A stretch of DNA of 64,000 bases from Alphaproteobacteria bacterium (GTDB lineage Bacteria > Pseudomonadota > Alphaproteobacteria > SMXQ01), in the NCBI GenBank assembly GCA_009380075.1, contig WHSO01000012.1:1-64000 (forward strand), in the 5' to 3' direction. Below the pieces are notes generated by a model that did not search any database, was not told where the DNA came from, and worked only from the letters and a program-made list of their open reading frames with translations. Below are positions 974-64,000 of the stretch, piece by piece. A program made the position numbers and the translations under genes. Position 1 is the stretch's first letter. Each line of letters starts with the position of its first letter.

Positions 974-1074
974 CGTCTTCTCTCCAAAGCCAACGTGCGA
1001 GGGGATAGTCACGGCCCTAAGGGCCGGACACAACAGAAATCGGAGAGAATTATCCGGATAATTCCAATCGGTGA

Positions 1075-1974: not shown

Positions 1975-1976
1975 AA

Positions 1977-2864: not shown

Positions 2865-4435
2865 CAGGCGACCTCCTGGAGCCGGATACGGGCTGCCAGA
2901 TCATAAAGCGCTTCCATGCCGTCGAACCGGTAGGCATCCAGGGAAATCCCGTTATACCGGGTCAGCCGCAGGAAGGGACCCTCAACGTCGATGCGTGGCA
3001 GCAGGTAATAATCGAGAGGCTGGAGGTTGGCCTGATCCATCCGGATGGCGACCGTGATATCCGGTCTCAGACGCCTGTCGAAGCGGATGTGCCACCTGAG
3101 AGTTCCGGACTGCATTTCCCGACAGCGCGAAATCACTATGGAAACCGTGAACTCCCGATTGACCGTCAAAAGGTCAGTGATCGGGTCGCGCTCCGCGAAC
3201 CCGCCCGTACGCCGGATCTCTTCGATGGCGGTGGAGACTACTTCGGGGTGCATTTCCCGCAGCGTGCGGTTGATTTCCACGTACTGGAAATCCCGGTCGG
3301 GCGTGAACCCCACTTGCTGATACGCGCGCAAAAGCGTTCCGAACCGATAGCGATAGACGCTGCTCGATGGCAACTCGTCGCTCTCGTCTATGATCAGGCC
3401 CGAGAGGAAGCCGCGCTCCTGGTATAGGACCCGCAAGCCTTCTAGCATTTCCTCCTCCGAGTAGCGACGCGAGCGCTCCCGGATGATGGCCTGTGCGGCG
3501 TCGAAGATGGCGGGGTCGACGACCGCCTCAAAGGCGCGGTTGGCCCTGACCCACATATCCGGGCAGTTGAACACACGTTTCTTCTTGAGCTTGAATGACA
3601 CCCGGTTCCAGACATTGTTGCCGATGTACTTCTCGTTCAGAAGTACCTGATGGACCGTTCCCCGGGTCCATGCACGGCCGCGGTCCGTCAGGGTCCCGCG
3701 GGCATTCAGCACGTCGGCAATTTCCTTCTCGTTCTTTCCCCCATCGACAAATGCGCGATACATCCAGCGTACCGTCGCCACCTCCTCCGAAGGTCCCGGA
3801 ACCAGCACTACCCGATCAGTCTGGATGCTCTTGTGTTCGCCATGAGAAAGCTGCCCTTTGATACCCCCGGTCTGGTCCACGAGCTGACGGCGAAGCCCGA
3901 ACCCGGCCGGGCCTCCCTGCCGGAAGCCACGTTCGATCAGCCGGCACTGCCCCGCAAATACCTTGGCTGAAAGCTCCCTGCTGTACTCTCCCGCCATCGC
4001 CCGCTTTACGCCCTTCACGATGGTCGAGACGGGACTCCCGTCATTCTCGAACTGTTCGGCGCAGTACTGCACCGATATCCCCGCTCTTCGGCAGATGTAC
4101 TCGTAATACGCACTTTCATCGGCGTCCTGGAACCGACCCCATCGGCTCACGTCGTAGACCAGGATCACGGAAAAGTCCGCTCGCCCCTCCTGGACATCCG
4201 AGATCAGTTGTTTGAGTGCGTCGCGGCCGTCCAGCCGGAGGCCGCTTCGACCCTCGTCGGCATAGGTGCGGACAATCCGGATGCCGTGCTGTGCTGCATA
4301 CTGCTGGATAGCATCCGCCTGGTTCTCGGTGGAGTACTGTTGGTGCTCGGTGGACATCCGGACGTATTGGGCGCCCCGGATTGCCGGTCCTTCTTCCTCC
4401 TTCCGACCGTTGCTGTGTGGTCCGTCTGCCGCCAT
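2864..4435 (-). CDS. Large serine recombinase (resolvase/invertase N-terminal domain)
   Basis: This 523-residue recombinase starts with the resolvase catalytic domain. YVRMSTEHQ supplies the nucleophile Ser28, and the later LVYDVSRWGRFQDADES carries the conserved arginines. It is followed by the 'recombinase' DNA-binding domain (about 170-300, GPAGFGLRR, NARGTLTDRGRAWTRGTV, LLNEKYIGN) and a long C-terminal region without an obvious zinc ribbon. Such enzymes integrate, excise or invert DNA through short crossover sites. The ATG at 4435 has a GGAG very close to it, so an internal start is possible. It leads an operon with two ParB-like genes and diverges from the interrupted regulator at 4552; the shared 116-base gap probably holds both promoters and possibly a recombination site. 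Confidence 0.9.
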   Translation of the reverse strand: MAADGPHSNGRKEEEGPAIRGAQYVRMSTEHQQYSTENQADAIQQYAAQHGIRIVRTYADEGRSGLRLDGRDALKQLISDVQEGRADFSVILVYDVSRWGRFQDADESAYYEYICRRAGISVQYCAEQFENDGSPVSTIVKGVKRAMAGEYSRELSAKVFAGQCRLIERGFRQGGPAGFGLRRQLVDQTGGIKGQLSHGEHKSIQTDRVVLVPGPSEEVATVRWMYRAFVDGGKNEKEIADVLNARGTLTDRGRAWTRGTVHQVLLNEKYIGNNVWNRVSFKLKKKRVFNCPDMWVRANRAFEAVVDPAIFDAAQAIIRERSRRYSEEEMLEGLRVLYQERGFLSGLIIDESDELPSSSVYRYRFGTLLRAYQQVGFTPDRDFQYVEINRTLREMHPEVVSTAIEEIRRTGGFAERDPITDLLTVNREFTVSIVISRCREMQSGTLRWHIRFDRRLRPDITVAIRMDQANLQPLDYYLLPRIDVEGPFLRLTRYNGISLDAYRFDGMEALYDLAARIRLQEVA

Positions 4436-4551
4436 CTCTCCGGTCCGCCAGATTGCTGGGACCGCTCCTGCCGCTCACCGGGAACTGGAGCGCTGAGCAG
4501 GCACAGCTTTTCTGAATTGCGGGAAAATTTTATAGGCAGGAGACGGCCAAC

Positions 4552-5238
4552 ATGTTCCCGAAAAAGGACAATTTTTGGCCCAGGCAGCGCGGAAGAGAGC
4601 CTCCCGACCAAGCCTACGCAGAGCTGATCGCGGCGGCCCTGCGGGCCGAGCTGGGACCAACGCACCAGGCGATCAAGACGATCATGCGATGGACAGGTGC
4701 GAGTGAAAGCGCAGCCAAGCACTAGCTAAGCGGGCACCACGGACCGAGCGGAGGCTACCTGATCGCTCTAATGAATAGATCGAATACGGTATTTGATGCA
4801 GTGTTGGCTGCGGCCGGGCGCCAGGACGTGGCGTTCCGTGCTCAGGCCCTGGCAGTTGGCCGGGCACTGACGATAAGCTTGTCGCTTTTGGAGGAGATAC
4901 CGGGAAATCATGGAGGGATCCGCAATGAGGCAGCATATGAGTCGACGGGAGGCGGAGTGCACCTCGGCCGTGACACAGTAAACGACCGAGTAACTGACCG
5001 ATCGTCTGACCCTCTAAGCGGCACAAAATTTTATGCTTTTCAGGGAGAGTTGAATCAGCGACAGCGCTGGTTTATCAGGGCGTTGCTTGCGGCGGCCCCT
5101 GTGAAAGCGCGAGACTTACAGGTGAGATGGCAGGTTTCGGAGAAAACCGCCCGACGGGATTTGGCGCATTTAAAGAGGCTCAGGCTCATCGAGTTTGCGG
5201 GAGCTTTTAAGAACGGGAGTTACCGGCTATGCGATTAG
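4552..5238 (+). pseudogene. Small island regulator interrupted by an in-frame amber codon
   Basis: The ATG at 4552 follows a GGAG site and opens a 57-codon frame ending in TAG at 4723-4725. The same frame continues without another stop to 5238. The two parts together match a short alphaproteobacterial family I know from islands: before the stop AIKTIMRWTGAS, after it GHHGPSGGYLIALM. In that family a tryptophan sits exactly where the TAG is, so a single TGG-to-TAG change explains the break. The distal part (ATG at 4771, 155 codons) ends in a winged-helix segment (VSEKTARRDLAHLKRLRLIEF) typical of DNA-binding regulators and could be made separately. Whether the gene is dead, read through, or now two proteins cannot be told from sequence. 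Confidence 0.75.
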
Positions 5239-5402
5239 AAATGCCTTAGGAAATTGATGTCCAGGTTTCAGTTCTGCTTTTGCATTTCAGTGCTTTCGTC
5301 TATCACGACGCGCAAAAATAGCTTTAACTGCAGATGTGATGGGCAGCTGAGAGGGCAATGCGAACTTAATAACCGATACCGGATTCTAGCCCGTGATTGT
5401 GT

Positions 5403-6608
5403 TCAGTCGGGCACGTTTTCCTGTTCATTTTGCCGTGCGGCCGGATCGGATGGAATCGCTTGCCTGATCGTGCCGTTTCTTACCGGATCAATACGATCCG
5501 CTTCCTGCCGGGCCCAGTCGGCCCATCGGCGGAAATCGTCTGGCTTGATGGACAACTCTGCTATCCGTGCCGAAGCCGATCGCACGTAGGCCCGGATCCG
5601 TTCAGCCAGCTCGAGAGCCCTGGCCTCACGGAGCAGCCGCTGAATCCGTTCCCTTGCTGCCTTTTCCTCCAGCTCCCGCGCCTTGCGTTCGGCTTCTTCC
5701 CTGCGTCGAACCAGTTCCGCCTCGGCCTCAGCCTTTCGCCCGATAATACACTTCCGGTGCCGGACCAGGCTTTCCCGATACCGGACTTCGGCGACTACCA
5801 GCATTTCGACCAGTATTTCTGTTAGGCGGCTTTCCAGCGGTCCCTCGGTATCATCCTCCCGGAAATGGCCTCGGGTCCCCTTGTCTCCCGCCGTGCCAAA
5901 TGCGAGATGCAATCGTTCCCGTTTGCCGCCTTTCTGCGTCTCAATCGGCTCAATCGTAAATTGCACATACGTTTCGCCGATACTGATTCCGATCTCCCGA
6001 TCGCTTCCGGTGTCCTGCACATATTTTGAGGTGCGCATCGACGGTCTGCCTCCGAGACGCGTGGCGGCCATGAAAAGTGCGTTCAGGATAAGCAATCGAC
6101 GTCGCTCGGCGCCCGAATCATATTTCGGTGCATAGTAGCTGGACCCCCATTTGAGATACTCTTTTCGCCGCTCCTCGTCATGGGCGAGGAGCTTTGCGAC
6201 GAGCGGATGCGCAGGGTCGAAGTGTCGGGGGCGGCGAATTTTGCCGACCAGTTTCTGGGCGCGCTCCCTGACCGACGATATATCTTCATCAAATATTGGT
6301 ACGGGCGGGACTGGAACCTCCCTGAATTTTTCCGCCCAATCAGAGAAGAAGTAGTAACCTTGACGGGATGAACCGCCGACCCGATCCGACGAACCGGGGA
6401 AGCGGGGAGGTAGTGCCACCTGAATGGTGGGTTTGCCAGCCTGCTTGCGAGCCCAGTAACCCCGGCTGGGGGCGGGGATATTTGCCTTCTTGCATTGCTT
6501 GGCAAGGGCGACGTCGGATATTCCGATACTGGATGCCACGACTTTCATCGGTTGTGCCCAGACCAGTTCGTAGAGTTCTTTCCGGGTAAATTCTCGGTTC
6601 ATGCCCAT
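5403..6608 (-). CDS. Helix-turn-helix protein of unknown function downstream of dinB
   Basis: This 401-residue protein has a recognisable N-terminal module: FTRKELYELVWAQPM followed by a helix-turn-helix-like segment (VASSIGISDVALAKQCKKANI) and PSRGYWARKQAGK. I have seen this arrangement in uncharacterised proteins from proteobacterial accessory regions. The middle is unassigned, and residues ~290-350 form a long charged coiled coil (EEAERKARELEEKAARER). It starts 50 bases after dinB on the same strand with no terminator between, so it is probably co-transcribed and under SOS control. A DNA-binding role is likely, but no enzymatic motif is visible. Confidence 0.75.
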   Translation of the reverse strand: MGMNREFTRKELYELVWAQPMKVVASSIGISDVALAKQCKKANIPAPSRGYWARKQAGKPTIQVALPPRFPGSSDRVGGSSRQGYYFFSDWAEKFREVPVPPVPIFDEDISSVRERAQKLVGKIRRPRHFDPAHPLVAKLLAHDEERRKEYLKWGSSYYAPKYDSGAERRRLLILNALFMAATRLGGRPSMRTSKYVQDTGSDREIGISIGETYVQFTIEPIETQKGGKRERLHLAFGTAGDKGTRGHFREDDTEGPLESRLTEILVEMLVVAEVRYRESLVRHRKCIIGRKAEAEAELVRRREEAERKARELEEKAARERIQRLLREARALELAERIRAYVRSASARIAELSIKPDDFRRWADWARQEADRIDPVRNGTIRQAIPSDPAARQNEQENVPD

Positions 6609-6658
6609 TATTCCTGATAGTGGTGCTCCTGATGGAATTCACAGGACGCGGTATCTTC

Positions 6659-7747
6659 CTACGTGATGTCGGCATCGCTTGCACTGAACAGAGGGAGCGC
6701 GCCGGTATCATCCCGCCCCTGACTGAAATTCGAGATGGTAACGCCGAGCAGGCGCACGCCCTTCGCGACCGGCAGCAGCTTGCGCACCAGTTCGACACTT
6801 GCCCCGCGAAGAAGGTCGCGGTCCGCTACCACGCTCGAGAAGCTGTGGCTGCGTGTAATCTGGTGAAAATCGGTGTATTTCACTTTCACCGTAATGGTCC
6901 GACCGTAGGCCCTGGCCATCTCGCACCAGGCCCAAACTTTGTCGGCCATGGCCGTGACCCCGGCCTCGATTTCGGCGGATGTGGTCAGATCGCGGCGGAA
7001 GGTGGTCTCTGAGCCCGAGGATTTGCGCTGCCGGTTGGAGACGACCGGCCGGTCGTCTTCGCCATTCGCGATACCGAGATACCATGCAGCCGCCTTGCCG
7101 AAATGCTGCTGCAGGAAGGCGAGCGGCTTCGCTCTCAGATCAGAACCTGTCCTGATGCCGAGTCGATCCATCTTCGCGGCGGTGACAGGGCCGACACCGT
7201 GAAACCTGGCGACGGGCAGCGCAGCGATGAAGTCCAGGGCCGTCTCCGGGGTGACGGCGAACTGGCCGTTCGGCTTGCGCTCGTCAGAGGCCAGCTTGGC
7301 GAGAAACTTGTTGTAGGAGATGCCGGCAGATGCGGTTAGTCCTGTCGCCTCCCGGATGCGCGAACGGATTTCCTTCGCGGTCGCCCAGGCCGTTGGCAGC
7401 CCGCGCCTGTTCTCCGTAACATCGAGATAAGCCTCGTCGAGCGCCAAGGGCTCGATCAGCGCTGTGTATTCCGCGAAAATGCCGTGGATATGGCGGGAGA
7501 TCGCGCGATAAACCGCGAAGCGCGGCGGAACGAAAATCAGCTCCGGACACCGGCGAAGGGCCGTGGTGGAGGGCATCGCGGAGCGTACGCCGAAGGCCCG
7601 GGCCTCGTAGCTCGCTGCGGCCACCACGCCGCGCTGGGCGCCATGGCCCACCGCAACCGGGCGCCCGCGAAGCTCCGGGTTGTCGCGTTGTTCGACCGAG
7701 GCATAGAACGCATCCATGTCTATATGAATGATCTTGCGTAGCGACAT
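6659..7747 (-). CDS. dinB: DNA polymerase IV (Y-family translesion polymerase)
   Basis: This is a 362-residue DinB polymerase, close to the usual 350-360. The N-terminal HIDMDAFYASVEQRDNP supplies the first catalytic aspartate and the steric-gate region, and ALDEAYLDVTEN carries the second acidic pair. SYNKFLAKLASDERKPNG and the GVGPVTAAKMDRLGI helix-hairpin-helix follow in order, then the little-finger domain. LPLF near the C-terminus could bind the sliding clamp. The enzyme bypasses lesions and is error-prone. A perfect alphaproteobacterial LexA box lies 21 bases upstream, so SOS induction is expected. This copy sits in accessory DNA and may not be the organism's only dinB. Confidence 0.96.
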   Translation of the reverse strand: MSLRKIIHIDMDAFYASVEQRDNPELRGRPVAVGHGAQRGVVAAASYEARAFGVRSAMPSTTALRRCPELIFVPPRFAVYRAISRHIHGIFAEYTALIEPLALDEAYLDVTENRRGLPTAWATAKEIRSRIREATGLTASAGISYNKFLAKLASDERKPNGQFAVTPETALDFIAALPVARFHGVGPVTAAKMDRLGIRTGSDLRAKPLAFLQQHFGKAAAWYLGIANGEDDRPVVSNRQRKSSGSETTFRRDLTTSAEIEAGVTAMADKVWAWCEMARAYGRTITVKVKYTDFHQITRSHSFSSVVADRDLLRGASVELVRKLLPVAKGVRLLGVTISNFSQGRDDTGALPLFSASDADIT

Positions 7748-7768
7748 GGGAAGAGGTTACTAGTTGCT

Positions 7769-7783
7769 GAACGGAAAGTGAAC
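7769..7783 (-). promoter_or_regulatory. LexA (SOS) box upstream of dinB
   Basis: The minus strand reads GTTCACTTTCCGTTC, an exact match to the alphaproteobacterial LexA consensus GTTC-N7-GTTC. It lies 21 bases before the dinB start codon, so LexA bound here would block the dinB/HTH transcript. Confidence 0.88.
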
Positions 7784-7985
7784 ATTCGAGCCCTATAGCA
7801 ATCGCGGGGGAATGCGGTCGAGGGTGGGCAGACCTGGTAGGGTATTTGTTGGATTAGTAGGTATGGGCGCTCGCTCATGCCCTGCATCCGACCTCAAAAA
7901 AGTAATGAATTAATGCACTTATCTGCTTGATTGCGGCACGGATCGGAGCCTGTATGGTGAGCGCCATCAAGGTGCGGAGTCTGCC

Positions 7986-8108
7986 ATGATCGAGCCCCGG
8001 AGCCAGCCGCAAGCGATCAACGCTTTCATCGCCAGAAAGGCAAAGATCGACGCGATGCTGAAGCGCATCGCCGACACCGCCTTCAGGGAGGGCGAACACG
8101 CCGATTAG
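7986..8108 (+). CDS. Very short conserved-looking protein (40 residues)
   Basis: The frame MIEPRSQPQAINAFIARKAK... ends at the TAG at 8106. The pattern 'AINAFIARKAKIDAMLKRI' resembles short alphaproteobacterial ORFs that begin with an F-(I/L)-A-(R/K)-K-x-x-I-D helix, which is why I list it. It is predicted to be a single helix and no function is known to me. A weak GGTGCGGAG precedes the start. The next small gene follows 103 bases later on the same strand. Confidence 0.45.
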   Translation: MIEPRSQPQAINAFIARKAKIDAMLKRIADTAFREGEHAD

Positions 8109-8211
8109 GCGTCCCGCTTCCCGCCTTCGCCCTGATGGGCTCGCCCTCGGGGCTCGGCGCAGTAGAAGGGCCTGCATCTCGCGGACCCGGATACGACGGA
8201 AGGAGGCATCC

Positions 8212-8439
8212 ATGTTCTACCAGAACCTGCTTCACGAACTGGCGCCCGAACTGAACCCCGCCGGGGTCGAGGCGTCGATGCGCCTGCAATACGGAACCCT
8301 CAGTCATCTGCCGCGTGAAATATTCGTCGAGGAGGCGAAGGTCGCAGCCACCTGCGAACGCCAGTCGCCGGGCTATCTGCGCCGGGTGGCAGATAGCATG
8401 GGCATGGCCAGCGAGTATGACGCATGGCAGGTTAGCTGA
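8212..8439 (+). CDS. Small conserved hypothetical protein (75 residues)
   Basis: The ATG follows a good GGAGG-type site (GGAAGGAGGCATCC). The product, starting MFYQNLLHELAPELNP and including GVEASMRLQYGTLSHLPRE, resembles short proteins I recall from alphaproteobacterial genomes, with a conserved 'EASMRLQYGTLDHL' core and a terminal 'DAW'. It has no signal peptide, membrane segment or catalytic motif and is predicted helical. It probably shares a transcript with the 40-residue ORF upstream. Function is unknown. Confidence 0.65.
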   Translation: MFYQNLLHELAPELNPAGVEASMRLQYGTLSHLPREIFVEEAKVAATCERQSPGYLRRVADSMGMASEYDAWQVS

Positions 8440-8714
8440 TTAGCCGTCTTACAGACACACAGAGGACCGTCCTCGGCACCGCCTTGCAGGGCCTGAAAAT
8501 GCTGGCGCTACCGCTCCCGAGGAACCGCAGGGGTGGTTCCGCCACGGGGCGACCTGGGTTGATCTAGAGGCCCCGGTCGGCGCGATCGATCTGCGTGGCA
8601 GAGCGACGCTAGGGACCACGGCATCTGACTTCGGCGCGTCGGACATCGCCTCCGCGGTTCTCGCGCCTCAAGTGCCAGCCCTTGCCGGCGGCACGATCGG
8701 ATCCAGCGACAACT
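8440..8714. other. Gap with a possible gene remnant
   Basis: No intact gene is seen. One plus-strand frame stays open from about 8456 to the TGA at 8721-8723 (includes GWFRHGATWVDLEAPVGAIDL) but has no plausible start or ribosome site. It may be the tail of a decayed gene and I cannot assign it to a family. Confidence 0.3.
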
Positions 8715-8887
8715 TTCCCTGATAACGCGAAAAAATTCCCTGTTATGACTGAAGAAGTTCCCTGTTACGGTGCGCAGGGAATCGGCGCGTAGGGCCTTGA
8801 AATCCTGCCAATTTTCCGGCTAGAACCGTCTCCGGATCAAGAAAATCGCGCGAATTTCCCTGTATTTTCCCTGATAACAGGGAATTC
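8715..8887. repeat. Cluster of TTCCCTG(A/T)TA repeats
   Basis: Copies of TTCCCTGATAAC or TTCCCTGTTA(T/C) occur on the plus strand at 8715, 8736 and 8758, with related TTCCCTGTA at 8856 and TTCCCTGATAA at 8867. Inverted CAGGGAA copies lie at 8775 and 8878. The last pair forms the near-palindrome TTCCCTGATAACAGGGAA (8867-8884). Similar 'ttccctg' clusters are scattered in many alphaproteobacterial genomes near mobile DNA. The spacing is irregular, so these are not textbook iterons. They could be recombinase or ParB-like binding sites, or a dispersed repeat family. Confidence 0.7.
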
Positions 8888-9252
8888 AAGCAGAGACTGG
8901 TTCGCTCTAGTCTGAGAGCACCACCATTTTTCTTTATATATATATCAGACACTTATAATTCATAGCCCGGAAGGCCCGGGGTTCTGCGGCGTTTTGCGCG
9001 GTCGAATTCTCCAGAGACGATTTCAGCGCGAACTCAAACAGGATTTTGGCGAAAAGTCTCTGGAGGCCTTTTTCGGGGACCACACCATCGACCGTAGTTC
9101 TTCCATCAGGAGCATCATTAAGTGGATTTGCTGCGGAAAAGGCTCTACTAAACAGCCTCGATTCTGACTTTTTTCTCTTCCTCCGATATCAACACGCGTC
9201 GAGATCGCGAACCGTTGTCCGCGATGACACCAAAGTTTGGACCAAAGTCGCC
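8888..9252. other. AT-rich leader before the ABC-F gene
   Basis: The ABC-F reading frame stays open upstream to 9046, but those extra ~69 codons do not resemble the family, so I treat them as non-coding. The stretch holds an AT-rich block (about 8925-8965) with a TATAAT at 8954-8959 that could be a -10 element, though I see no matching -35. ABC-F genes often have long regulated leaders, but I cannot identify a leader peptide or attenuator. Confidence 0.35.
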
Positions 9253-10866
9253 ATGTTAAGCATCGATAACGTCACCGTCCGAATCGCAGGTCGCGATATC
9301 ATCCAAGGCGCCACCGCCAGGTTGCCGGCGGGCCGGCGTATAGGCCTTGTGGGCCGAAACGGAGCGGGCAAGTCGACCTTGCTAAAGGTAATCATGGGCC
9401 AGCTCGCCACCGATGACGGAGATGTGTCATGGCCGCGCGACTGGAAAGTCGGCGCCGTCGCGCAGGAGGCGCCGGGCACTGCTGAAAGTCTTCTCGATAC
9501 AGTACTGGCTGCTGACCAGGAACGTAATCGGTTGTTGGTTGCGGCCGAAACAGAAACGAACCCCGACGCACTGGGCGACATATATACCCGGCTTGTCGAC
9601 ATCGATGCCTATTCTGCGCCCTCGCGCGCGGCGTCCATTCTGGCTGGTCTTGGTTTTTCCGAGAAAGAACAGGGACGCCCCTGTTCAGAGTTTTCTGGTG
9701 GTTGGCGCATGCGTGTCGCGCTTGCCGCCATCCTTTTCGCCAGCCCCGACCTGCTGCTCCTGGACGAACCCACCAACTATCTCGATCTTGAAGGTGTGCT
9801 TTGGCTGGAAGACTTCCTGCGTAGTTACCGGGGTACGGTCCTGATCGTCAGTCATGACCGGGATCTCTTGAACACTGCAGCCGAATTCATATTGCATCTC
9901 GAAAACGGGAAGCTCACGCTCTACACGGGCGATTACAATACGTTCATCGCCACACGCACGGCCAGGCGCGCGCTTGATGCCGCTTTCGCCAGGAAGCAGG
10001 AAGCCGCGCGCGCACATATGCAAGCCTTCGTCGACCGCTTCAAGGCGAAGGCGTCCAAGGCGCGTCAGGCCCAGAGCCGTATGAAAATGCTTTCCAAAAT
10101 GCAGGTTATCGAATCGCCTGTAGACGAACATGTCGCCCCGATCCGCATTCCCAAACCTGTCGAGGCGAGCCCGCCGCTCATCACCATGGATAGAGCTTCC
10201 GTAGGCTATGTGGCGGGCAAGCCTGTCCTCCGGCACATGTCCATGCGGTTCGATCCCGATGACCGCATCGCGCTCCTCGGCAAGAATGGCAACGGTAAAT
10301 CAACCTTGGCGAAATTGCTGGCGAACAAGCTCCCCTTGATGGGTGGTGAACTGGTGCGAGCGCGGAAATGGGTGCCGGGGTATTTTGCCCAGCACCAGTT
10401 GGAAGAACTGGACGGTTCGCTCACACCGATCGAAACATTGTCACGTCTACGCCCGATACTGCCGATGGAGCAGTTGCGCGCGCAATTGGGCGGTTTTGGG
10501 TTCACCGCCGCCAAAGCAATGACCAAAGTGGAAAATCTTTCGGGTGGTGAGCGTGCTCGTCTGATGCTGGCGCTTGCCACTTTGGACAAGCCAAATATGC
10601 TTATCCTGGACGAGCCGACAAACCATCTCGATATCGATGCGCGAACCGAATTGCTGAATGCGCTGAATAACTTTGACGGCGCCGTGATTCTGGTAAGTCA
10701 CGACCGGCGGTTGCTGGAAGCCACGGCCGATCGCTTTCTGCTCGTCGCCAATGGCCGAGTGGAGCCTTTTGATGGCGATCTTGACGATTACCGTCGCTTC
10801 CTTCTGTCAGGAAAAAATACGCCGTCCGAACGTGAAACGACCAGGAACCCCGTGCGTGTAGCCTAG
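9253..10866 (+). CDS. ABC-F family ATPase (ribosome-associated, Uup/EttA-like)
   Basis: This is a 537-residue soluble protein with two ABC cassettes and no membrane segments, the ABC-F layout. Cassette one has Walker A GRNGAGKST (34-42), signature FSGGW and Walker B LLLLDEPTNYLD. Cassette two has GKNGNGKST, LSGGERARL and MLILDEPTNHLD. The charged linker between them (about 230-300, rich in K/R/A) is the P-site tRNA interaction motif region. The start at 9253 gives MLSIDNVTVRIAGRDI, the normal family beginning. ABC-F proteins act on stalled ribosomes or protect them from antibiotics. Its subtype cannot be fixed from sequence alone. A broken MFS gene follows eight bases later. Confidence 0.93.
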   Translation: MLSIDNVTVRIAGRDIIQGATARLPAGRRIGLVGRNGAGKSTLLKVIMGQLATDDGDVSWPRDWKVGAVAQEAPGTAESLLDTVLAADQERNRLLVAAETETNPDALGDIYTRLVDIDAYSAPSRAASILAGLGFSEKEQGRPCSEFSGGWRMRVALAAILFASPDLLLLDEPTNYLDLEGVLWLEDFLRSYRGTVLIVSHDRDLLNTAAEFILHLENGKLTLYTGDYNTFIATRTARRALDAAFARKQEAARAHMQAFVDRFKAKASKARQAQSRMKMLSKMQVIESPVDEHVAPIRIPKPVEASPPLITMDRASVGYVAGKPVLRHMSMRFDPDDRIALLGKNGNGKSTLAKLLANKLPLMGGELVRARKWVPGYFAQHQLEELDGSLTPIETLSRLRPILPMEQLRAQLGGFGFTAAKAMTKVENLSGGERARLMLALATLDKPNMLILDEPTNHLDIDARTELLNALNNFDGAVILVSHDRRLLEATADRFLLVANGRVEPFDGDLDDYRRFLLSGKNTPSERETTRNPVRVA

Positions 10867-10873
10867 CCTTTCG

Positions 10874-11161
10874 GTGCAGTATGTACCCCCGCTGATCAAG
10901 CGCAATATTGTCCTGTTTGCGCTTTCACAGTCGTTCAACGGGGGCGGGGATGCAGCTCGCCTACGGCATGCGCCGCTCATGGTGCTGGCGCTTACCAGTT
11001 CCGCTTCGCTCGCGGGCTTGTCCGTCGCGCTGATCGGACTCGGTCGCTTTCTGGTCGCCTATCCAATCGGCGAGATCATGGACATTTATTCGAACAAAAA
11101 AATCTCATGGCTCGAGATTTCGGTGGGATGTGTTCGACCGGGATTTATTTTCAAGGTTTAG
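10874..11161 (+). pseudogene. Truncated MFS transporter remnant
   Basis: Ninety-five codons match only the N-terminus of a major facilitator transporter (MQYVPPLIKRNIVLFALSQSF, then PLMVLALTSSASLAGLSVAL and GLGRFLVAYPIGEIMD), where the family has ~400 residues. Between these blocks the frame reads GGGDAARLRHA, but the +1 frame reads MQLAYGM, the expected helix. One extra G in the G-run near 10945 and one missing G about 20 bases later would restore it, so two compensating shifts are present. After residue ~75 the similarity stops. The gene follows the ABC-F ATPase directly and probably once formed a transcript with it. Confidence 0.75.
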
Positions 11162-11557
11162 CTCCCAGTGGTGTAACAGCGCCCTCGCAGGCCCATATAG
11201 AGACTCTGTCAAGGACTGGGTCGCCCGCCCTGGCCGCCGACCTCATGCTCGCGGCGCCTCACTACCGGAGCTTATCACTACCCAGAGGTGGATTCTGGTG
11301 CCTCTATTGGCACGACCAGAACGATACTGCTTGAGGTCAAGTACCGAATGGGCCATTGGGAAGTTACCAAGAACGGTCGTTTTACAGTGATTCTTATACG
11401 AAAGAATGGGCTCATAAAGCCGTACAGGAGGCGATTGATGCGATCGCGTCGAAAGGCGGTTCAGCGGTGGTGTCATATGTGGGGTCCAGAACATGCCAAG
11501 GCTGACGCGATTTGAAGACCAATCGCCCGATCGGTAAGTTCACATAGCTAACGCGCA
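11162..11557. other. Degenerate stretch between MFS remnant and transglutaminase
   Basis: No intact gene is found. Several short overlapping open frames exist. One plus-strand frame (about 11338-11491, containing SFYSDSYTKEWAHKAVQEAI) has protein-like composition but no start and no family I recognise. It is probably decayed coding DNA. Confidence 0.35.
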
Positions 11558-12454
11558 ATGCGCAAACGCGGGGTGCATCCCATACCGATACTCTCCGTCC
11601 ATCACGTGACGACATATCGCTATCGTCAACCGGTTGCCTTCGGCGAGCACCGGATGCTGTTCCGTCCCCGCGAGGGACATGACCAGAAGCTCTTGGAAGC
11701 GAAGCTGGAGATTACACCGGAACCAAGGGAAATACGGTGGCTCCACGACGTCTTCGGGAACAGTGTGTGCGTCACGCGCTTTTCAGGCCGCTCACGGGAA
11801 CTGAGATTCGACAGCACTGTGTTGCTCGACCACACACCGACAAATGTGCTCGATTTTCCGATAGAGCCCCATGCGGAGGCTTATCCGTTCTCATACGACA
11901 TCGATGACATGCCGGATCTTGCTCGCTCCATCGAACGCCAATACCCGGATCCGGATCACGTGCTGGAGCTTTGGGCCCGTCAGTTCGTACAGCCGGACGG
12001 TTCAACAGGCACGCTCAAGTTATTGGCCACGCTGACCCACGCGATCCGGCGGAACTTCGTATATGTCCCCCGCCCGGAGAGAGGCGTCCAGGAACCGCTC
12101 CAGACGCTTCACCTCGGCAGCGGCACATGTCGCGATTTCGCCGTATTCTTGATTGAAGCGATGCGCTCGCTTGGCCTCGCGGCACGTTTCGTCTCGGGAT
12201 ACATTTACGTTCCCGAAAGGAGCGGCCGTGTCGGCGGTGGGGCGACTCATGCATGGCTCAGGGTATACGTACCTGGCGCCGGGTGGGTAGAGCTGGATCC
12301 AACTAACGGCATTATGGGCAACCGCGATCTGATCCGGGTCGCGATCGCACGCGATCATCGTCACCTGCTGCCTCTGCACGGAACATGGACAGGATTTCCG
12401 TCAGATTGTCTCGGGATGACGGTCGAAGTCGACGTCACCGCTGCCGAGCCATAA
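11558..12454 (+). CDS. Transglutaminase-like cysteine protease-fold protein (intact triad)
   Basis: This 298-residue protein has the bacterial transglutaminase N-terminal beta domain (about 10-100, beginning LSVHHVTTYRYRQPV) followed by the transglutaminase core. The triad is complete: Cys191 in GSGTCRDFAVFLIEA, His231 in GGATHAWLRVY and Asp247 in GWVELDPTNG. Such proteins are proteases, amidases or cross-linking enzymes acting on peptides, and no signal peptide is seen. The ATG at 11558 lacks a good ribosome site; GTG at 11573 is an alternative. It precedes a second, divergent transglutaminase by 38 bases and an N-formylglutamate amidohydrolase. In other bacteria similar pairs neighbour ATP-grasp and alpha-E proteins, which are missing here. 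Confidence 0.88.
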   Translation: MRKRGVHPIPILSVHHVTTYRYRQPVAFGEHRMLFRPREGHDQKLLEAKLEITPEPREIRWLHDVFGNSVCVTRFSGRSRELRFDSTVLLDHTPTNVLDFPIEPHAEAYPFSYDIDDMPDLARSIERQYPDPDHVLELWARQFVQPDGSTGTLKLLATLTHAIRRNFVYVPRPERGVQEPLQTLHLGSGTCRDFAVFLIEAMRSLGLAARFVSGYIYVPERSGRVGGGATHAWLRVYVPGAGWVELDPTNGIMGNRDLIRVAIARDHRHLLPLHGTWTGFPSDCLGMTVEVDVTAAEP

Positions 12455-12492
12455 CTCGAAGCACGTCAGATTCGTTCCAAGGAGTGTATTTC

Positions 12493-13302
12493 ATGCACAT
12501 TAGCGCCGGCTGCCAAATCATCTATGACTGTCCGCAATCCACACCGATGTTGTTGATGGTCACCCCGCATCCTTCACGTACGGTGGATCTGGTCGAGCAG
12601 CACCAAATTGCCTTCGATCCGCCGATAGGATCTCACAATTATAGTGACGGTTTTGGCAATATCTGTACCCGGATCGTTGCGCCATCCGGACGACTAGTGA
12701 TCTCAACGCGGTTTCTTGCCGAGGATTCTGGAGGACAAGACCCCATCGCTCCAACGGCACGCCAACACCCCGTCGAGGAATTGCCCGACGATCTGTTGAT
12801 TTACCTGCTCGCCAGTCGTTACTGCGATACAGACAATCTTTCTGATACCGCTTGGGCCCTATTTGGCCAGGGGCCCACCGGATGGGGTAGGGTCCAGGCA
12901 ATCTGCGATTACGTGCATGAACGCATCACGTTCGACTATGCGCAAGCCAGTCCGACACGGACAGCCTCCGAGGCTCTCTCGGCACGGCGGGGGGTTTGCC
13001 GCGACTATGCGCATCTTGCTGTTGCTCTCTGTCGGTGCATGAATATTCCTGCACGGTATTGCACGGGATTCCTAAGTGATATCGGCGCCCCGCCTCCATA
13101 TGGACCAATGGACTTCGCGGCGTGGTTCGAAGCCTATCTTGACGATCGCTGGCACGTCTTCGATCCACGCAACAATACGCCGCAAATCGGACGAATACTA
13201 ATGGCCCGCGGCCGCGACGCGACGGATGTGGCGATCGTCACAAATTTTGGTTTCTGCACTCTCGTTGGATTTAACGTGTTTACGGACAAGGCTTCGGAAT
13301 AG
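12493..13302 (+). CDS. Transglutaminase-like protein lacking the canonical catalytic histidine
   Basis: This is a 269-residue protein of the short transglutaminase subfamily. The start at 12493 follows an AAGGAG site. The N-terminal half is the beta-rich domain and the core has the cysteine motif SARRGVCRDYAHLAVALCRCM (Cys169). In the position of the usual H-A-W the sequence reads DFAAWFEAYL (Ala209), and the aspartate motif is present as WHVFDPRNNTP. Loss of this histidine occurs in part of the family, so the protein may be non-catalytic or use another base. It lies between the triad-complete paralogue and an N-formylglutamate amidohydrolase on one strand. Confidence 0.86.
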   Translation: MHISAGCQIIYDCPQSTPMLLMVTPHPSRTVDLVEQHQIAFDPPIGSHNYSDGFGNICTRIVAPSGRLVISTRFLAEDSGGQDPIAPTARQHPVEELPDDLLIYLLASRYCDTDNLSDTAWALFGQGPTGWGRVQAICDYVHERITFDYAQASPTRTASEALSARRGVCRDYAHLAVALCRCMNIPARYCTGFLSDIGAPPPYGPMDFAAWFEAYLDDRWHVFDPRNNTPQIGRILMARGRDATDVAIVTNFGFCTLVGFNVFTDKASE

Positions 13303-13368
13303 TGCGATTCGCGAGAACATCGCTCCATTGCTTTGTCCAAACATGCCTCAACAGTCGGGAGACGGCAG

Positions 13369-14151
13369 ATGCACAAACCCATGAATGCCGATAAATATCA
13401 TGACCCGCCTGCTGTGACCGCCGTTAACGAGGGAGGCTCCTCCCCGTATCTCCTGATCTGCGAACATGCTGCTAACTATGTTCCGGCCAGCTATGACAAT
13501 CTGCGACTGACGGTCAAAGATCTTGCCAGCCATATTGCTTGGGATATTGGGGCGGCGCTGCTTGCGCGAAGGCTTTCAGGTCTGCTCGATGCACCCTTGT
13601 TTCTGTCCGGCTACTCGAGGCTCCTGATCGATTGCAACAGGCCGCCACGGTCACCGTCAAGCATTCCGGCACGTAGCGAGGATACCGAGATTCCGGGCAA
13701 TCAGGGACTTTCCTCCGCTGAAGTTGTCTTTCGCGAGAGGGCATTCTTTGCGCCGTTCCAGGAACGGATCACGCGCTTCCTCGACGACCGCGAGGCAGCC
13801 GGTCGGCCGAGCTCCCTCCTTGGCATTCACAGTTTCTCCCCGACCTATCGTGGTGTCCTGCGTACTTGGCATGTGGGCATTCTCCATGGACGGGCAACCG
13901 CGCTGGCATCACGGCTCATCGAGGGATTCAGACGCGATCCGAAGCTTGTCGTGGGCGACAACGAGCCCTACCGAATTGATCCCGAGGAGGACTATACGGT
14001 GCCCGTGCATGGCGACGCCCGCGGCATTCCCGCCGTGCTGATCGAAGTGAGGAATGATCTCCTCGTTAGTGTGGTCGATATTCAAACCTGGGCAGCCCGC
14101 ATTGCAGGCGTCCTCGACCTGCAAGCCAGGCCAGCGACTGGGAACCCCTAG
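13369..14151 (+). CDS. N-formylglutamate amidohydrolase family protein
   Basis: This 260-residue hydrolase belongs to the FGase family, zinc-dependent relatives of carboxypeptidases that release formate from N-formylglutamate or cleave related N-acyl amino acids. Recognisable segments are PYLLICEHAANYVP (metal-binding E/H near the N-terminus), HIAWDIGA, LSGYSRLLIDCNRPP, LLGIHSFSPTY and PAVLIEVRNDLL near the end, in family order. ATG 13369 follows GGGAGACGGCAG and is preferred over an earlier in-frame ATG at 13333. No histidine-utilisation genes are nearby, so the histidine-pathway role is doubtful. Grouping with two transglutaminases suggests peptide or N-acyl amino acid processing. Confidence 0.88.
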   Translation: MHKPMNADKYHDPPAVTAVNEGGSSPYLLICEHAANYVPASYDNLRLTVKDLASHIAWDIGAALLARRLSGLLDAPLFLSGYSRLLIDCNRPPRSPSSIPARSEDTEIPGNQGLSSAEVVFRERAFFAPFQERITRFLDDREAAGRPSSLLGIHSFSPTYRGVLRTWHVGILHGRATALASRLIEGFRRDPKLVVGDNEPYRIDPEEDYTVPVHGDARGIPAVLIEVRNDLLVSVVDIQTWAARIAGVLDLQARPATGNP

Positions 14152-14309
14152 TCATCGGCGTCCTCTTGCTTCAGCCAGCGGGCGATGATCGGGTGCGGAT
14201 CGCGCGGCTGTCGCGGGACGAGGACCGTGCCAATTTCCTGACCTTGCCGATCGTAAAGCTCGCGGTAAAGATCTGCTCGTGCACTCTTCCAAGGCTGGAC
14301 AGATATCAT
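14148..14309 (-). CDS. Possible small protein overlapping the amidohydrolase 3' end
   Basis: A 53-codon frame (MISVQPWKSARADLYRELYD..., ending RWLKQEDADD) has sensible protein composition and fills an otherwise empty gap. It converges on the N-formylglutamate amidohydrolase and overlaps its last four bases. There is no strong ribosome site and I recognise no family. It could equally be the end of a gene truncated at its start. Confidence 0.35.
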   Translation of the reverse strand: MISVQPWKSARADLYRELYDRQGQEIGTVLVPRQPRDPHPIIARWLKQEDADD

Positions 14310-14389
14310 CCGGAAAGCGGGGTATAGGTTTCACGTTTGGTAAGTTGATCGGACATCTATCGCATCATCCGACGTCGTTGAGGATTCGT

Positions 14390-15133
14390 TCAGGCGACTT
14401 CACTCGTAGCTAGTTGGCGCGCGCCGAGTTGCCCGAGGCCCTCCAGGGTATCTGTAATGCCGGCCGTCCGGATGGCAGCCCAGAGTGCCACCTGATTGCT
14501 GGTGAGAACCGGCTTGCCGAGATCCGCTTCCAACGGTTCGATCATGTCTATCGCCTGAATATTCGCGCAGCTTATGAAATAGGCGTCGGCCCGATCAGAA
14601 CGTTCCTCATGCGCAATATCTGCCCAAAATGCGGGTGGCGTGGTGCAGGATTCATCGCTGACGAGAGCCGCACCGCGACCGCCTACAATTTCCATTCCGG
14701 CAGATTGCAGAAACCGCTTCTTTTCTTCGTATCCTGCCGAATCATTCTCGGAGATAAAAACAAGGCGCCTCGCGCGAATTTTCTCCAATGCCATCATAAG
14801 GCAGTTCGCCGTGGTGAGCCCGGGACGACCCGTCGCTCGCTCAATAGCTTCCACCATGGCCGTTTCGCCGCCGAATCCTCCCGACATCGAAGTGCCCGTG
14901 CACTGCAGGACTGTCACATCGCACTTTGCGTCCCCCAGGATCGAGGCGGCTTCCTCCAAACCTGCAATCAGTTCGTCAAAGTTCTTACGATGCTTACCGG
15001 ACATGCGCAACCGCATGAAGTGAGGGACGACGCCAGGTGGCGAATAACGCTGGAAATTGGGCTCCGCCATCCTGTTAGAGGAAGGAATAATGAATCCGAT
15101 GCGGGCGCGCGGCGTGATCCTGGCGTGATTCAT
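14390..15133 (-). CDS. Maleate isomerase / Asp-Glu racemase superfamily enzyme
   Basis: This 247-residue protein belongs to the cysteine-pair racemase fold that includes maleate cis-trans isomerase and arylmalonate decarboxylase. The N-terminus RIGFIIPSSNRMAEP matches maleate isomerase entries. The two catalytic cysteines are in place: Cys78 in VLQCTGTSMSGG and Cys189 in YFISCANIQAIDMIEPLE. The C-terminal PVLTSNQVALWAAIR is also typical. Substrate is probably a dicarboxylate such as maleate or a 2-substituted malonate. The start ATG follows an AGAGGGGG-like site. It stands alone at the edge of the accessory region, next to a 396-base gap. Compare the cysteine-less relative at 47590. Confidence 0.85.
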   Translation of the reverse strand: MNHARITPRARIGFIIPSSNRMAEPNFQRYSPPGVVPHFMRLRMSGKHRKNFDELIAGLEEAASILGDAKCDVTVLQCTGTSMSGGFGGETAMVEAIERATGRPGLTTANCLMMALEKIRARRLVFISENDSAGYEEKKRFLQSAGMEIVGGRGAALVSDESCTTPPAFWADIAHEERSDRADAYFISCANIQAIDMIEPLEADLGKPVLTSNQVALWAAIRTAGITDTLEGLGQLGARQLATSEVA

Positions 15134-15529
15134 GAAATACCCCCTCTGCCTGCGTTCTGCGTAATCTGTTTGTTCCTAGAAAAAGAAACATTAGTCGCTA
15201 TCGGAATGTCAAACAACGAGATGAGTTCTTGGGCCGAAAATGAGGCCAGCAGGCGAGGTGAGGACGTCGTCGGGCATTGCGCTTCTGTCCATCTTGGCCA
15301 AAACTAGGCTCAGAAGGAGAAACACCCATGCGTACCTTCTCGTCGGCCGACGCCTAGTACCACTTCGGAGACCCGATTGACGCCGCGCGCCTCGCGCGGC
15401 TGCCTCTTGGCTTCTTGTCGTCGGGCCGACGAGGACGGATTGGGCCTTGACGCGTGCGCGACCTCGGGAAAGTCTTCGGTCGCGGCATCGCATGGGTGTG
15501 TTAGAGCAACGAATGAGGGAGAGCGAAGC
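15134..15529. other. Divergent intergenic region; possible leader peptide and island edge
   Basis: This gap separates two divergent genes. At 15328 a good AGGAG precedes an ATG that opens only nine codons (MRTFSSADA, stop TAG at 15355). Downstream of it is a GC-rich inverted stretch (CCGCGCG...CGCGCGG near 15382-15401). This might be a leader peptide with a hairpin, or the start of a decayed gene. By eye, base composition shifts to higher GC here, consistent with a junction between accessory and resident DNA. No tRNA or direct repeat was found. Confidence 0.3.
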
Positions 15530-16408
15530 ATGAAGACCCTGGGTTTCATCGGCACCGGTGGCATGGGCAGCGGCATGGCGGCCAACCTGATCAAGGCGGG
15601 CTATAGCCTGGTCGTGACCGACCTCAGGCGCGAACAGGCGAAGGGACTGGAGAGCCAAGGCGCCAAGTTCGCGGACTCACCCAAAGCCGTGGCCGAATCG
15701 AGCGAGCTCGTGCTCTCGATGCTGCCGACCAACGGTGCCGTCAAGGCCGTCGCTCTCGGCAAGGGCGGGCTCGCCGAGGCAACCACCGGCGCGAAAGTGT
15801 GGATCGATTTCAGCAGCATCGACAAGGAGACCATTGTCGGCGCCAGCGACGAGCTCGGCAAGAAGGGCTGGACCGTCGTCGACGCGTCCGCCGGCGGTGT
15901 CGAGGAGGTGGCGGCGGCCGGTCAGCTGGCGCTCTGGCTTTCGGGCTCCAAGACCCTGTTCGACGAGCATCAGCCCATATTCAAGGCCATGGGCAAGTCG
16001 ATCCTTCATGTGGGCGAGCTCGGCAACGCCAAGCTCGTCAAGAACGCCATGGCGATGCTGGCCGCCGTGCAGCACATGAGCCTGGTCGAGGTCTGCAGCT
16101 GGCTCAAGAAGGGCGGACTCGACGAGGCCACCTTCCAGACCGTCATCAAGAACTCGCAGCAGGATTCGGTGGCGACCCGGCGCATCATGGAAATCGTGGT
16201 GAGCCGCAATTTCAAGCCGCGCAAGTCGTGGATGCCGAAGGACGTGGGCTTCGGGCTCGACATGGCGCGCGAGATGGAGGTCCCGATGCCGTTCGTCGGC
16301 CTCGCCCAACAGATGTTCGCCATCGCGCAGGCGACAGGCCAGGACGGCTACGAGGCGACGGGCATCGCCTGCAACGTCTATGACGTGATCAACGGCGTGA
16401 AAAATTAG
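15530..16408 (+). CDS. NAD(P)-dependent beta-hydroxyacid dehydrogenase
   Basis: This is a 292-residue enzyme of the 3-hydroxyisobutyrate/6-phosphogluconate dehydrogenase family. The N-terminal Rossmann domain opens with TLGFIGTGGMGSGMAANLIKAGY, the dinucleotide-binding and substrate signature together. VDASAGGVEEVAAAGQL is the DAPVSGG-type segment, and GNAKLVKNAMAMLAA contains the catalytic lysine. The C-terminal half is the all-helical domain. It would oxidise a beta-hydroxyacid (3-hydroxyisobutyrate, tartronate semialdehyde type) to the semialdehyde. The reading frame extends upstream, but ATG 15530 has a GAGGGAG site and begins the domain exactly. It stands as a single gene, so its pathway is unclear. 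Confidence 0.9.
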   Translation: MKTLGFIGTGGMGSGMAANLIKAGYSLVVTDLRREQAKGLESQGAKFADSPKAVAESSELVLSMLPTNGAVKAVALGKGGLAEATTGAKVWIDFSSIDKETIVGASDELGKKGWTVVDASAGGVEEVAAAGQLALWLSGSKTLFDEHQPIFKAMGKSILHVGELGNAKLVKNAMAMLAAVQHMSLVEVCSWLKKGGLDEATFQTVIKNSQQDSVATRRIMEIVVSRNFKPRKSWMPKDVGFGLDMAREMEVPMPFVGLAQQMFAIAQATGQDGYEATGIACNVYDVINGVKN

Positions 16409-62194: not shown

Positions 62195-63919
62195 TCAACC
62201 CGGCCCGGTAAGCCCCCGGAAGAACGCGGTGGCGCCGAGGCGCAGGTTCCTCAGGGCATAACCCCCCTCCTGCACCACCAGGGTGGGCCAGCCCGGCGCC
62301 GCCAGCATCTCCCCGATGCGGCGCATGCCCCGTTCGTTGATGCTGAAACTGCCGGTGGGATCGCCCGCCATGATGTCGAAACCCAGCGAAACGACCAGGT
62401 AATCCGGCTTGAAACGCGCGAAAAGGCGCAGGGCACGGGCCAGAGTGTCGGCATAAACGGCGTTGTCGGCGCCTGGAAAGAGCGGAAAATTGCGGTTGAA
62501 ACCCTTGCCCGTGCCGGTTCCACGCTCGTCCGGGAAGCCCGCGAAGTAGGGGTAGGTGGTGCGTGGATGGCCGTGGATGGAGACGAAATACACGTCGGCG
62601 CGCTCGTAAAAGATGTCCTGGGAGCCGTTGCCGTGGTGGTGGTCGATGTCGAGAAAGGCGATGCGCCCCCGCTTCGACAGCCAATTTGCGGCGATGGCGG
62701 CGTTGTTGAAGTAGCAGAACCCGCCGAAGGCACGCCGTTCGGCGTGGTGTCCGGGCGGGCGGCACAGCACGTAGGCGAGCTCCGCGCCGCCGGCGACCAG
62801 TTCGGCGCCGGTCAGTGCCGCGTCCACCGCCGCGCGCGCCGCGCGGTAGGCGTTGCGGGTCACGGGCGTGAAGGTGTCGATGCAGTAGTACCCCGCCTGC
62901 ATGTCCCAGGTCCGGGGGATGCGGTCGGGCCGGCGGATCGGGAACACGTTGGGGTAGAGGTTCTGGTTCGGCTTGAGTTCGGTCTCGGCGCGGGCGAGGA
63001 AGCGCACCAGGTCCGCGTCGTGCACCGCGAGGATATGGCGGCGGCCGAATTGTTCGGCCTTGTGGTCGACGACGGCGAAGGGCTGCAGGCCGCGCCGGAT
63101 GAAGGTGACCCGCGCCGGCCGCTCGACGTAGCCGCGCTCGCGCAGGTGGTGGATCTGGTGGGCATCGCCGGTGGAGACCAGGTGGATCGTCCGCCCCGCG
63201 CCGAACGCCCCCGGTTGCGGGCGCGGCCGGACGTAGCGCGGCTCGCGCAGGCGGATGGGATCGTCCTTGACCGAGGCGACGATCTCGCGCACCAGCGGAT
63301 CGTCCGCCGCCATGCCGCCCTTGATGGCGAGGATGCGCTGGATGAACGCGCGCAGGCGCGCGCGCGACAGGGGACGGCCGCTGTCCAGGTCGTCGTAGAC
63401 GAGGAAGGTGTAGTAGCCCTGGTTCGCCCGGGTCTTCAGGGATTCGTATTTGGTGCCGACGATGGGCCGCGCGCCCAGCCGTTCATAGAGCGTCATGCGC
63501 CGCTTGTTGATGGCGAGCCGCTTCCTGTCCGCGAGCAGCGCCTCCTCGTCGGGCGGCACGTCCATCAGCAGGCCGGCGTAGCGCCGCTCGACCAGGAATT
63601 CCTCGGTCGCCTCGTAGAGCGCGGTGCCGTAGCCGCGGCTGGCGCGCCGAGGGTCGCTCACGATGTAGTCGAGATAGGCGAGCCGGAGCTCGGGGAACAG
63701 GAACGTCAGGGTAAAGCCGACGACGCGGCTCTTGGCCGCCTCGGCCACCAGCAGCACCGGCTCGAAATCGAGCTCGCTGCGGAAACGGAGCATCTCGGCG
63801 ATCTTCTCGGCGTACTGGGGATAGTACGCGAACGCCGCCTGGTACATGCGCAGGACCTGGGCGATGACCAATTGATCCTGGGCGCTGACGGCGGAATGGA
63901 TGCGGCGGATACGGAACAT
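62195..63919 (-). CDS. GNAT acetyltransferase fused to a histone deacetylase-family domain
   Basis: This 574-residue protein joins two opposed activities. Residues ~15-180 form a GNAT fold, with LLVAEAAKSRVVGFTL and the acetyl-CoA loop RASRGYGTALYE. Residues ~265-574 form a class II-type deacetylase: RPPGHHAERRAFGGFCYFNN with His391-His392, zinc ligands Asp426/His428 in DIDHHHGNG and Asp515 in LGFDIMAGD, and Tyr554 in EGGYALRNL. All catalytic residues are present. It could act on protein lysines, polyamines or acetylated metabolites. The gene appears single, with a 245-base gap to the PhoH-like gene. Bacterial single-domain members are known; the fusion makes this entry notable. Confidence 0.9.
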   Translation of the reverse strand: MFRIRRIHSAVSAQDQLVIAQVLRMYQAAFAYYPQYAEKIAEMLRFRSELDFEPVLLVAEAAKSRVVGFTLTFLFPELRLAYLDYIVSDPRRASRGYGTALYEATEEFLVERRYAGLLMDVPPDEEALLADRKRLAINKRRMTLYERLGARPIVGTKYESLKTRANQGYYTFLVYDDLDSGRPLSRARLRAFIQRILAIKGGMAADDPLVREIVASVKDDPIRLREPRYVRPRPQPGAFGAGRTIHLVSTGDAHQIHHLRERGYVERPARVTFIRRGLQPFAVVDHKAEQFGRRHILAVHDADLVRFLARAETELKPNQNLYPNVFPIRRPDRIPRTWDMQAGYYCIDTFTPVTRNAYRAARAAVDAALTGAELVAGGAELAYVLCRPPGHHAERRAFGGFCYFNNAAIAANWLSKRGRIAFLDIDHHHGNGSQDIFYERADVYFVSIHGHPRTTYPYFAGFPDERGTGTGKGFNRNFPLFPGADNAVYADTLARALRLFARFKPDYLVVSLGFDIMAGDPTGSFSINERGMRRIGEMLAAPGWPTLVVQEGGYALRNLRLGATAFFRGLTGPG

Positions 63920-64000
63920 GGGCCATTCTAGCCCGGATTCCTGGCCCCAGCGACGGCGCCGCTTGCTACACTGCGGGGCAACGAAACCCGATGGGAGGAC
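63920..64000. other. Right-edge promoter/leader of a gene beyond the window
   Basis: The last bases end in GATGGGAGGAC, a strong ribosome site for a plus-strand gene whose start codon would lie just past the edge. TTGCTACACTG just before it may be part of its promoter. Confidence 0.4.

Follow-up and report, generated by a model that had tools for sequence, protein, structure and literature searches.

The window analysed here is a 64,000-nucleotide stretch of an alphaproteobacterial contig (WHSO01000012.1), and its minus strand carries a gene that encodes an N-terminal GNAT domain and a C-terminal zinc deacetylase domain in one polypeptide chain (Table 1). The reading frame starts with ATG, extends over 574 codons to a stop codon and contains zero internal stops. 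The two catalytic domains are connected by a helix-containing linker, in which S216 is found in 51 of 51 fusion proteins, R225 in 50 and P221 in 49. These 51 fusions, the window's own included, come from six phyla and share a whole-length alignment, one row of which (L064) runs to the contig end, where the contig stops at the fusion. A frame artefact or assembly error was ruled out because the 51 fusions reside in separate genomes, align over their whole length and keep the key residues of both active sites invariant. The frame is therefore sound and not misjoined, a possibility that the preliminary description of the locus had raised together with a suggestion to survey the architecture across genomes. 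A long plus-strand open reading frame (62567–63931) overlaps the fusion gene and is interpreted as a shadow frame of the GC-rich gene.

Table 1. Features of the fusion gene and of the protein that it encodes.
Feature	Residues	Position in window	Strand	Basis or conservation
GNAT-deacetylase fusion gene		62195..63919	(-)	Single open frame, 574 aa + stop
N-terminal GNAT domain	1-180	63380..63919	(-)	PF00583 and model
Acetyl-CoA loop A-S-R-G-Y-G	93-98	63626..63643	(-)	G96 and G98 invariant, 51/51
Y145-E146 pair	145-146	63482..63487	(-)	Invariant, 51/51
Conserved linker with helices	181-243	63191..63379	(-)	Alignment and model
APAH-type zinc deacetylase domain	244-574	62198..63190	(-)	PF00850 and nearest solved relatives
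Catalytic His pair in RPPGHH	H391-H392	62744..62749	(-)	Invariant, 51/51
Zinc ligands	D426, H428	62636..62644	(-)	Assigned by motif; invariant, 51/51
Zinc ligand	D515	62375..62377	(-)	Assigned by motif; invariant, 51/51
Gatekeeper motif PTG	P521-T522-G523	62351..62359	(-)	Invariant, 51/51
Catalytic tyrosine in EGGY	Y554	62258..62260	(-)	Invariant, 51/51

The GNAT head of the window protein matches the Pfam profile PF00583 over residues 27–117 with 26.5 bits (cut-off 20.7), and the same profile matches 44 of 45 GNAT parts of the fusions at E 0.01. When the GNAT part is modelled alone with AlphaFold from the family alignment, it adopts a complete GNAT fold with a mean pLDDT of 90.4. The best fold match of this model is 2wpx (Z 18.5, 166 residues, 2.8 Å), with RimI and others within 1 Z of it. 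Tandem GNAT, RimI, Ard1, GCN5 and aminoglycoside enzymes sit close together in the fold and profile searches, which do not name a substrate class for the head. The acetyl-CoA loop, whose possible loss the preliminary description had considered, is present, and a GNAT domain devoid of the loop glycines was ruled out by the occurrence of G96 and G98 in every fusion. D124 is also invariant (51/51), and Y145 is presumably the general acid, a role assigned by analogy. The head belongs to the GNAT superfamily, and its catalytic residues are intact in the alignment, which predicts acetyltransferase activity.

The deacetylase head matches the Hist_deacetyl profile PF00850 over residues 265–569 with 238.1 bits (cut-off 27.9). 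Its best solved relatives, both by sequence and by fold, are acetylpolyamine amidohydrolases (APAH), and the second part of the full-chain AlphaFold model adopts the APAH fold, with a Z score of 45.4 over 333 residues at 2.2 Å to 6phr. The histidine pair, the Asp-His-Asp zinc site and the catalytic tyrosine are all retained in the 51 fusions, as are D424 and H429. We take D426, H428 and D515 to act as the zinc ligands. Profile matches, alignment and models agree with the preliminary description that GNAT and zinc deacetylase domains with all catalytic residues are joined in one chain. The full-chain model has a pTM of 0.73 and comes without PAE, and therefore no claim is made on a channel or an interdomain distance.

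The fusions share with the APAH enzymes of cluster 4 (3q9b, 6phr, 3men and 9gkz) the fold (Z 43–45), the catalytic and zinc residues and the RPPGHH and EGGY motifs, but differ from them in the added GNAT domain, a PTG gatekeeper in place of PIS, the invariant residues E394, Y322, F326 and C346, and the ATP-grasp partners described below. Y322, F326, C346, E394 and T522, among others, set the fusions apart from 20 non-fused relatives, and F350, Y403 and L414 likewise passed the filter for fusion-specific positions, from which the stretch 257–265 was left out because gaps prevail in its non-fused rows. The acidic residue E394 follows the catalytic histidines and is invariant in the fusions but is not the usual residue in the 20 non-fused relatives, and threonine at position 522 is observed in only one of these 20 relatives compared with 51 of 51 fusions. 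PMC11532494 links the RPPGHH and EGGY motifs to acetyl-preferring or acetyl-specific deacetylases and gives PIS as the gatekeeper of bacterial polyamine deacetylases, with PEG in its place in HDAC10. The PIS gatekeeper is absent from all 51 fusions, which carry PTG; therefore, the deacetylase head was filed as APAH-related and not as a polyamine deacetylase.

A search of genome contigs identified 24 relatives, of which 20 are nearly full-length (42–78% identity) and four cover the deacetylase part only. They are distributed over Alpha-, Beta- and Gammaproteobacteria, Nitrospirota, Sedimentisphaerales (Planctomycetota), Synergistaceae, Chitinispirillaceae (Fibrobacterota) and Desulfobacterales. 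Full-length matches occur in 10 of 385 genomes of the window's class, the window's own included, and in 22 of 247 genomes of the phylum of a Desulfobacterales genome (G761, also included). In a thinner sample across Pseudomonadota, the window's genome alone (1/398) matches at E 1e-100, and four genomes of the same family in the class sample lack a fusion match. Such a patchy distribution would be expected if the gene is mobile or frequently lost. Spread on plasmids was rejected: 82 plasmid records match at E 1e-40, and none of them covers 80% of the query.

In a tree of the 51 fusions, one branch with 100/100 support separates clade A (18 rows), to which the window protein belongs, from clade B (33 rows). 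A three-domain GNAT-deacetylase-GNAT form of 750–768 residues is observed in eight of the 51 (L021, L062, L065, L066, L067, L089, L102 and L103). Each clade is tied to ATP-grasp amino-acid ligases. The comparison of gene neighbours across genomes that the preliminary description had proposed thus yields recurrent partners of the fusion in both clades.

In clade B, a gene similar to lysine-2,3-aminomutase and two ATP-grasps resembling D-Ala-D-Ala ligases (AG1 and AG2) are located near the fusion in 16 of the 33 rows and elsewhere in the genome in 11. On the short contig of L017, the aminomutase alone is visible, and its gene overlaps the fusion by four bases; in five rows (L019, L094, L096, L101 and L105), the partner candidates are only distant, partial or unplaced. 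An extra GNAT is encoded as a separate gene in eight of the 16 adjacent loci (L090, L091, L097, L098, L100, L106, L107 and L109). For the two clade B aminomutases that were scanned, the lysine model TIGR03820 is the best match, with 473.8 and 505.6 bits, below its equivalog cut-off of 525.4, and both pass the broader TIGR00238. One clade B aminomutase aligns with the solved lysine 2,3-aminomutase 2a5h. The Asp pair at the positions of 2a5h D293 and D330, which we take to bind the side-chain amine of lysine, is kept in all 39 aminomutase copies from 40 loci examined (L147 had none). Because the lysine model matches best, the 2a5h alignment holds and the Asp pair is kept, beta-lysine is a likely building block in clade B, as read from these sequences.

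The same genes are also found away from the fusion. In the phylum of G761, nine of 12 stretches that lack a fusion nearby contain an aminomutase-like gene, two ATP-grasps and a GNAT (L138, L139, L142–L146, L148 and L149; L145 is cut by a contig end, and AG2 is in two pieces in L148), and L140, L141 and L147 contain fewer of these parts. By its gene content, the fusion-less four-gene cassette is a candidate beta-lysine peptide pathway in its own right.

In clade A, a protein that combines a methyltransferase with an ATP-grasp of the ligase type seen in clade B is encoded in 16 of the 18 genomes, with at least 47% identity to the L013 protein that served as the query; the count includes L013's own genome and the window's, and the copy in G746 is cut at a contig end. 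The copy in the window's genome is located on contig C87 and is 61% identical to the L013 protein over 623 columns. The methyltransferase-ATP-grasp was not found in the other two clade A genomes, Maricaulis salignorans and BAL199. An M32 carboxypeptidase adjoins the fusion or the methyltransferase-ATP-grasp in nine of the 18 genomes. M32 genes are present somewhere in 16 of the 18 clade A genomes but also in all four same-family genomes without the fusion, and therefore only adjacency was counted. A gammaproteobacterial stretch (L119 of G752, 3997–11894) contains a methyltransferase-ATP-grasp and an M32 peptidase with two more ATP-grasps of the same type nearby.

The beta-lysine cassette was not found in the window's draft genome, which is 97.4% complete. 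The single KamA-family match in this genome is of the AblA_like_2 type (471 bits versus 396, and 287 versus 525 for the AblA model), and beta-lysine is thus unsupported there; for the window's genome, we propose no more than a putative amine on a ligase product. The direct neighbours of the window's fusion are PhoH and a divergent SDR, which are silent on a ligase pathway. A divergent SDR also lies beside the fusion in L004, the nearest relative, and SDR matches are located further off in L007, L010, L011 and L064.

The association with ligases was assessed by Fisher tests, all of which ignore shared ancestry. In the phylum of G761, AG1 is present at E<=1e-40 in 21 of the 22 genomes with the fusion compared with 63 of the 225 without it (p 4e-10), and at a strict threshold of E 3e-91 or better, which 48 genomes reach, 17 of the 22 and 31 of the 225 still have a match (p 7e-10). 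The methyltransferase-ATP-grasp is rare, occurring in 12 of 385 genomes of the window's class and, at the same threshold, in one of 200 Pseudomonadota genomes, which is the window's own. In the class sample, it is present in all three clade A fusion genomes and in none of the seven clade B fusion genomes; three of three versus nine of 382 others gives p 2e-5, where two of the three belong to one genus. Because KamA-family genes are common (29/34 genomes) and all of 32 genomes contain weak ATP-grasp matches (1e-12), only close matches were counted. The associations are one-sided, since both ligases occur without the fusion, as in nine of the 12 alphaproteobacteria with the methyltransferase-ATP-grasp, and the fusion is therefore an accessory of the ligase pathway and not its core.

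With confidence only slightly above even, we interpret the fusion as a two-headed small-molecule enzyme that caps and uncaps the amine of a ligase-made lysine-type compound. The GNAT head would acetylate a primary amine from acetyl-CoA, and the APAH-type head would take the acetyl group off again. The primary amine most likely is a free amino group on a lysine-type compound, which dedicated ATP-grasp ligases would couple to another acid. In clade B, the building block would be beta-lysine made by the lysine-2,3-aminomutase and ligated by the two ATP-grasps, and a further acetyl group would come from a second GNAT, which is either encoded separately or attached behind the deacetylase. In clade A, the methyltransferase-ATP-grasp would be the ligase, and its product may be broken down by the M32 carboxypeptidase. 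As a removable cap, the acetyl group would shield the amine in ligation and keep the wrong amine from reacting; alternatively, it might turn a stored solute from an inert into a usable form and back. As to the purpose of the cap, ligation guard or solute switch, we can offer a guess. We infer that the substrate is a small molecule, that it is built on beta-lysine in clade B and that both heads act on one compound.

The preliminary description had gone further in one respect, proposing a tuned cycle of acetylation and deacetylation on a shared substrate such as an acetyl-polyamine or protein lysine. Both heads are fused and look catalytically intact, and therefore some acetyl-group cycle is plausible; that the cycle is tuned and its substrate shared would follow from the joint presence of the heads by inference. 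The named substrates do not stand as well, since the genome context points elsewhere. Small amines are the substrates of APAH enzymes, which the deacetylase head resembles, but its invariant PTG gatekeeper departs from PIS and PEG. The ATP-grasp partners and the clade B aminomutase fit a small lysine-type peptide better than polyamines or proteins, and therefore the substrate is likely the amine of a small ligase-made lysine-type compound and not histones or bulk protein.

A buffer for polyamines, in which the GNAT head acetylates and the deacetylase head deacetylates putrescine, cadaverine or spermidine, would suit the APAH likeness of the deacetylase head, as cluster 4 APAH enzymes act on acetylpolyamines according to PMC11532494, and the invariant acid E394 after the catalytic histidines fits this reading as well. 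We nevertheless judge it unlikely, as the gatekeeper is PTG, neither PIS nor PEG, and the conserved partners that were found are ATP-grasp ligases and an aminomutase. These partners also bear on a protein switch, in which one chain would add acetyl groups to a lysine of a target enzyme such as a CoA ligase and remove them again. Removal of the acetyl group from an AcsA lysine is described for the APAH enzyme PsApaH (PMC11532494), and in fold the GNAT head is similar to RimI and GCN5 but also to GNATs that act on small molecules. However, no constant protein target lies beside the gene in the 30 loci compared, the constant partners of the fusion are small-acid ligases, and access to the active site is restricted in bacterial polyamine deacetylases (PMC11532494), which by analogy may also hold for the fusions. 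We consider a protein-lysine switch the least probable of the alternatives.

One head might instead be mainly regulatory, with the GNAT domain serving as an acetyl-CoA sensor that tunes the deacetylase, or with the deacetylase alone turning over. The GNAT CoA loop often opens with Q or R; residue 93, which holds the opening position, is T, A, S or N in at least 38 of the 51 fusions, and the GNAT Pfam score of the window protein is weak. Such a division of roles appears quite improbable given the invariance of G96, G98, D124, Y145 and E146 in 51 of 51 fusions and the completeness of the predicted GNAT fold. The capping and uncapping of a ligase-made lysine-type amine thus remains our preferred interpretation. 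A wider proposal that builds on it is tentative and in our view rather doubtful: a widespread, undescribed pathway would use the aminomutase and two ATP-grasps to make an acetylated beta-lysine di- or tripeptide, with one chain installing and removing the cap as a protecting-group or on/off device, and the window's clade would represent a methylated variant that employs another lysine-type compound.

The N-epsilon-acetyl-beta-lysine osmolyte pathway consists of the aminomutase AblA and the acetyltransferase AblB. The clade B cassette shares with it an AblA-like aminomutase and acetyltransferases but adds two ATP-grasp ligases and a deacetylase, and the AblB model is absent from the NCBIfam matches of the three fusion proteins scanned. 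A hydrolase and a GNAT also share one chain in a fungal GH3 N-acetylglucosaminidase with a GNAT glucosamine N-acetyltransferase region (4zm6), which appears in the fold list of the GNAT model with a Z score of 16.0; its hydrolase, however, is unrelated and cuts a sugar linkage and not an acetamide. Iyer (2009) reportedly surveys ATP-grasp peptide-ligase neighbourhoods with GNAT caps and may mention gene clusters of the kind seen here. Successive ATP-grasp ligases, possibly with GNAT acyl capping, are described for peptide-ligase neighbourhoods in PMC4431377, which mentions neither HDAC nor aminomutase. The GNAT and deacetylase families themselves are well known. Among titles and opening lines of abstracts, no description of the fusion, the aminomutase cassette, the PTG gatekeeper or the ligase-linked context was found, and these are possibly new to the literature found, with a prior mention of the gene cluster possible in ATP-grasp surveys.

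A chain with two opposed enzyme activities wastes energy unless these are separated in time or share an intermediate that is passed on, and the fusion is a clean case for asking why evolution joins such enzymes. With the ligase association, a vague 'histone deacetylase family' annotation becomes a pathway that can be tested, which raises the possibility of an undescribed non-ribosomal lysine-type peptide in sulfate reducers, alphaproteobacteria, Nitrospirota and relatives of Halioglobus. If its role were that of a stored solute, the product could explain unidentified compounds of marine and sediment bacteria.

Elsewhere in the window, positions 1–16000 have a G+C content of 0.57–0.60 compared with 0.63–0.68 further on. 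This region contains, all on the minus strand, a nuclease (in 260–1702), RepB/ParB-like genes (1075–1974 and 1977–2864), a serine recombinase (2864–4435) and a DinB-type polymerase (6659–7747), and looks like an integrated element. In the window's genome, a second deacetylase-family gene (contig C91, 34445–35298) and an M32 carboxypeptidase gene (contig C17, 9974–11433) give two overlapping partial matches apiece, as would a broken frame, which may reflect either a sequencing error or a broken gene.
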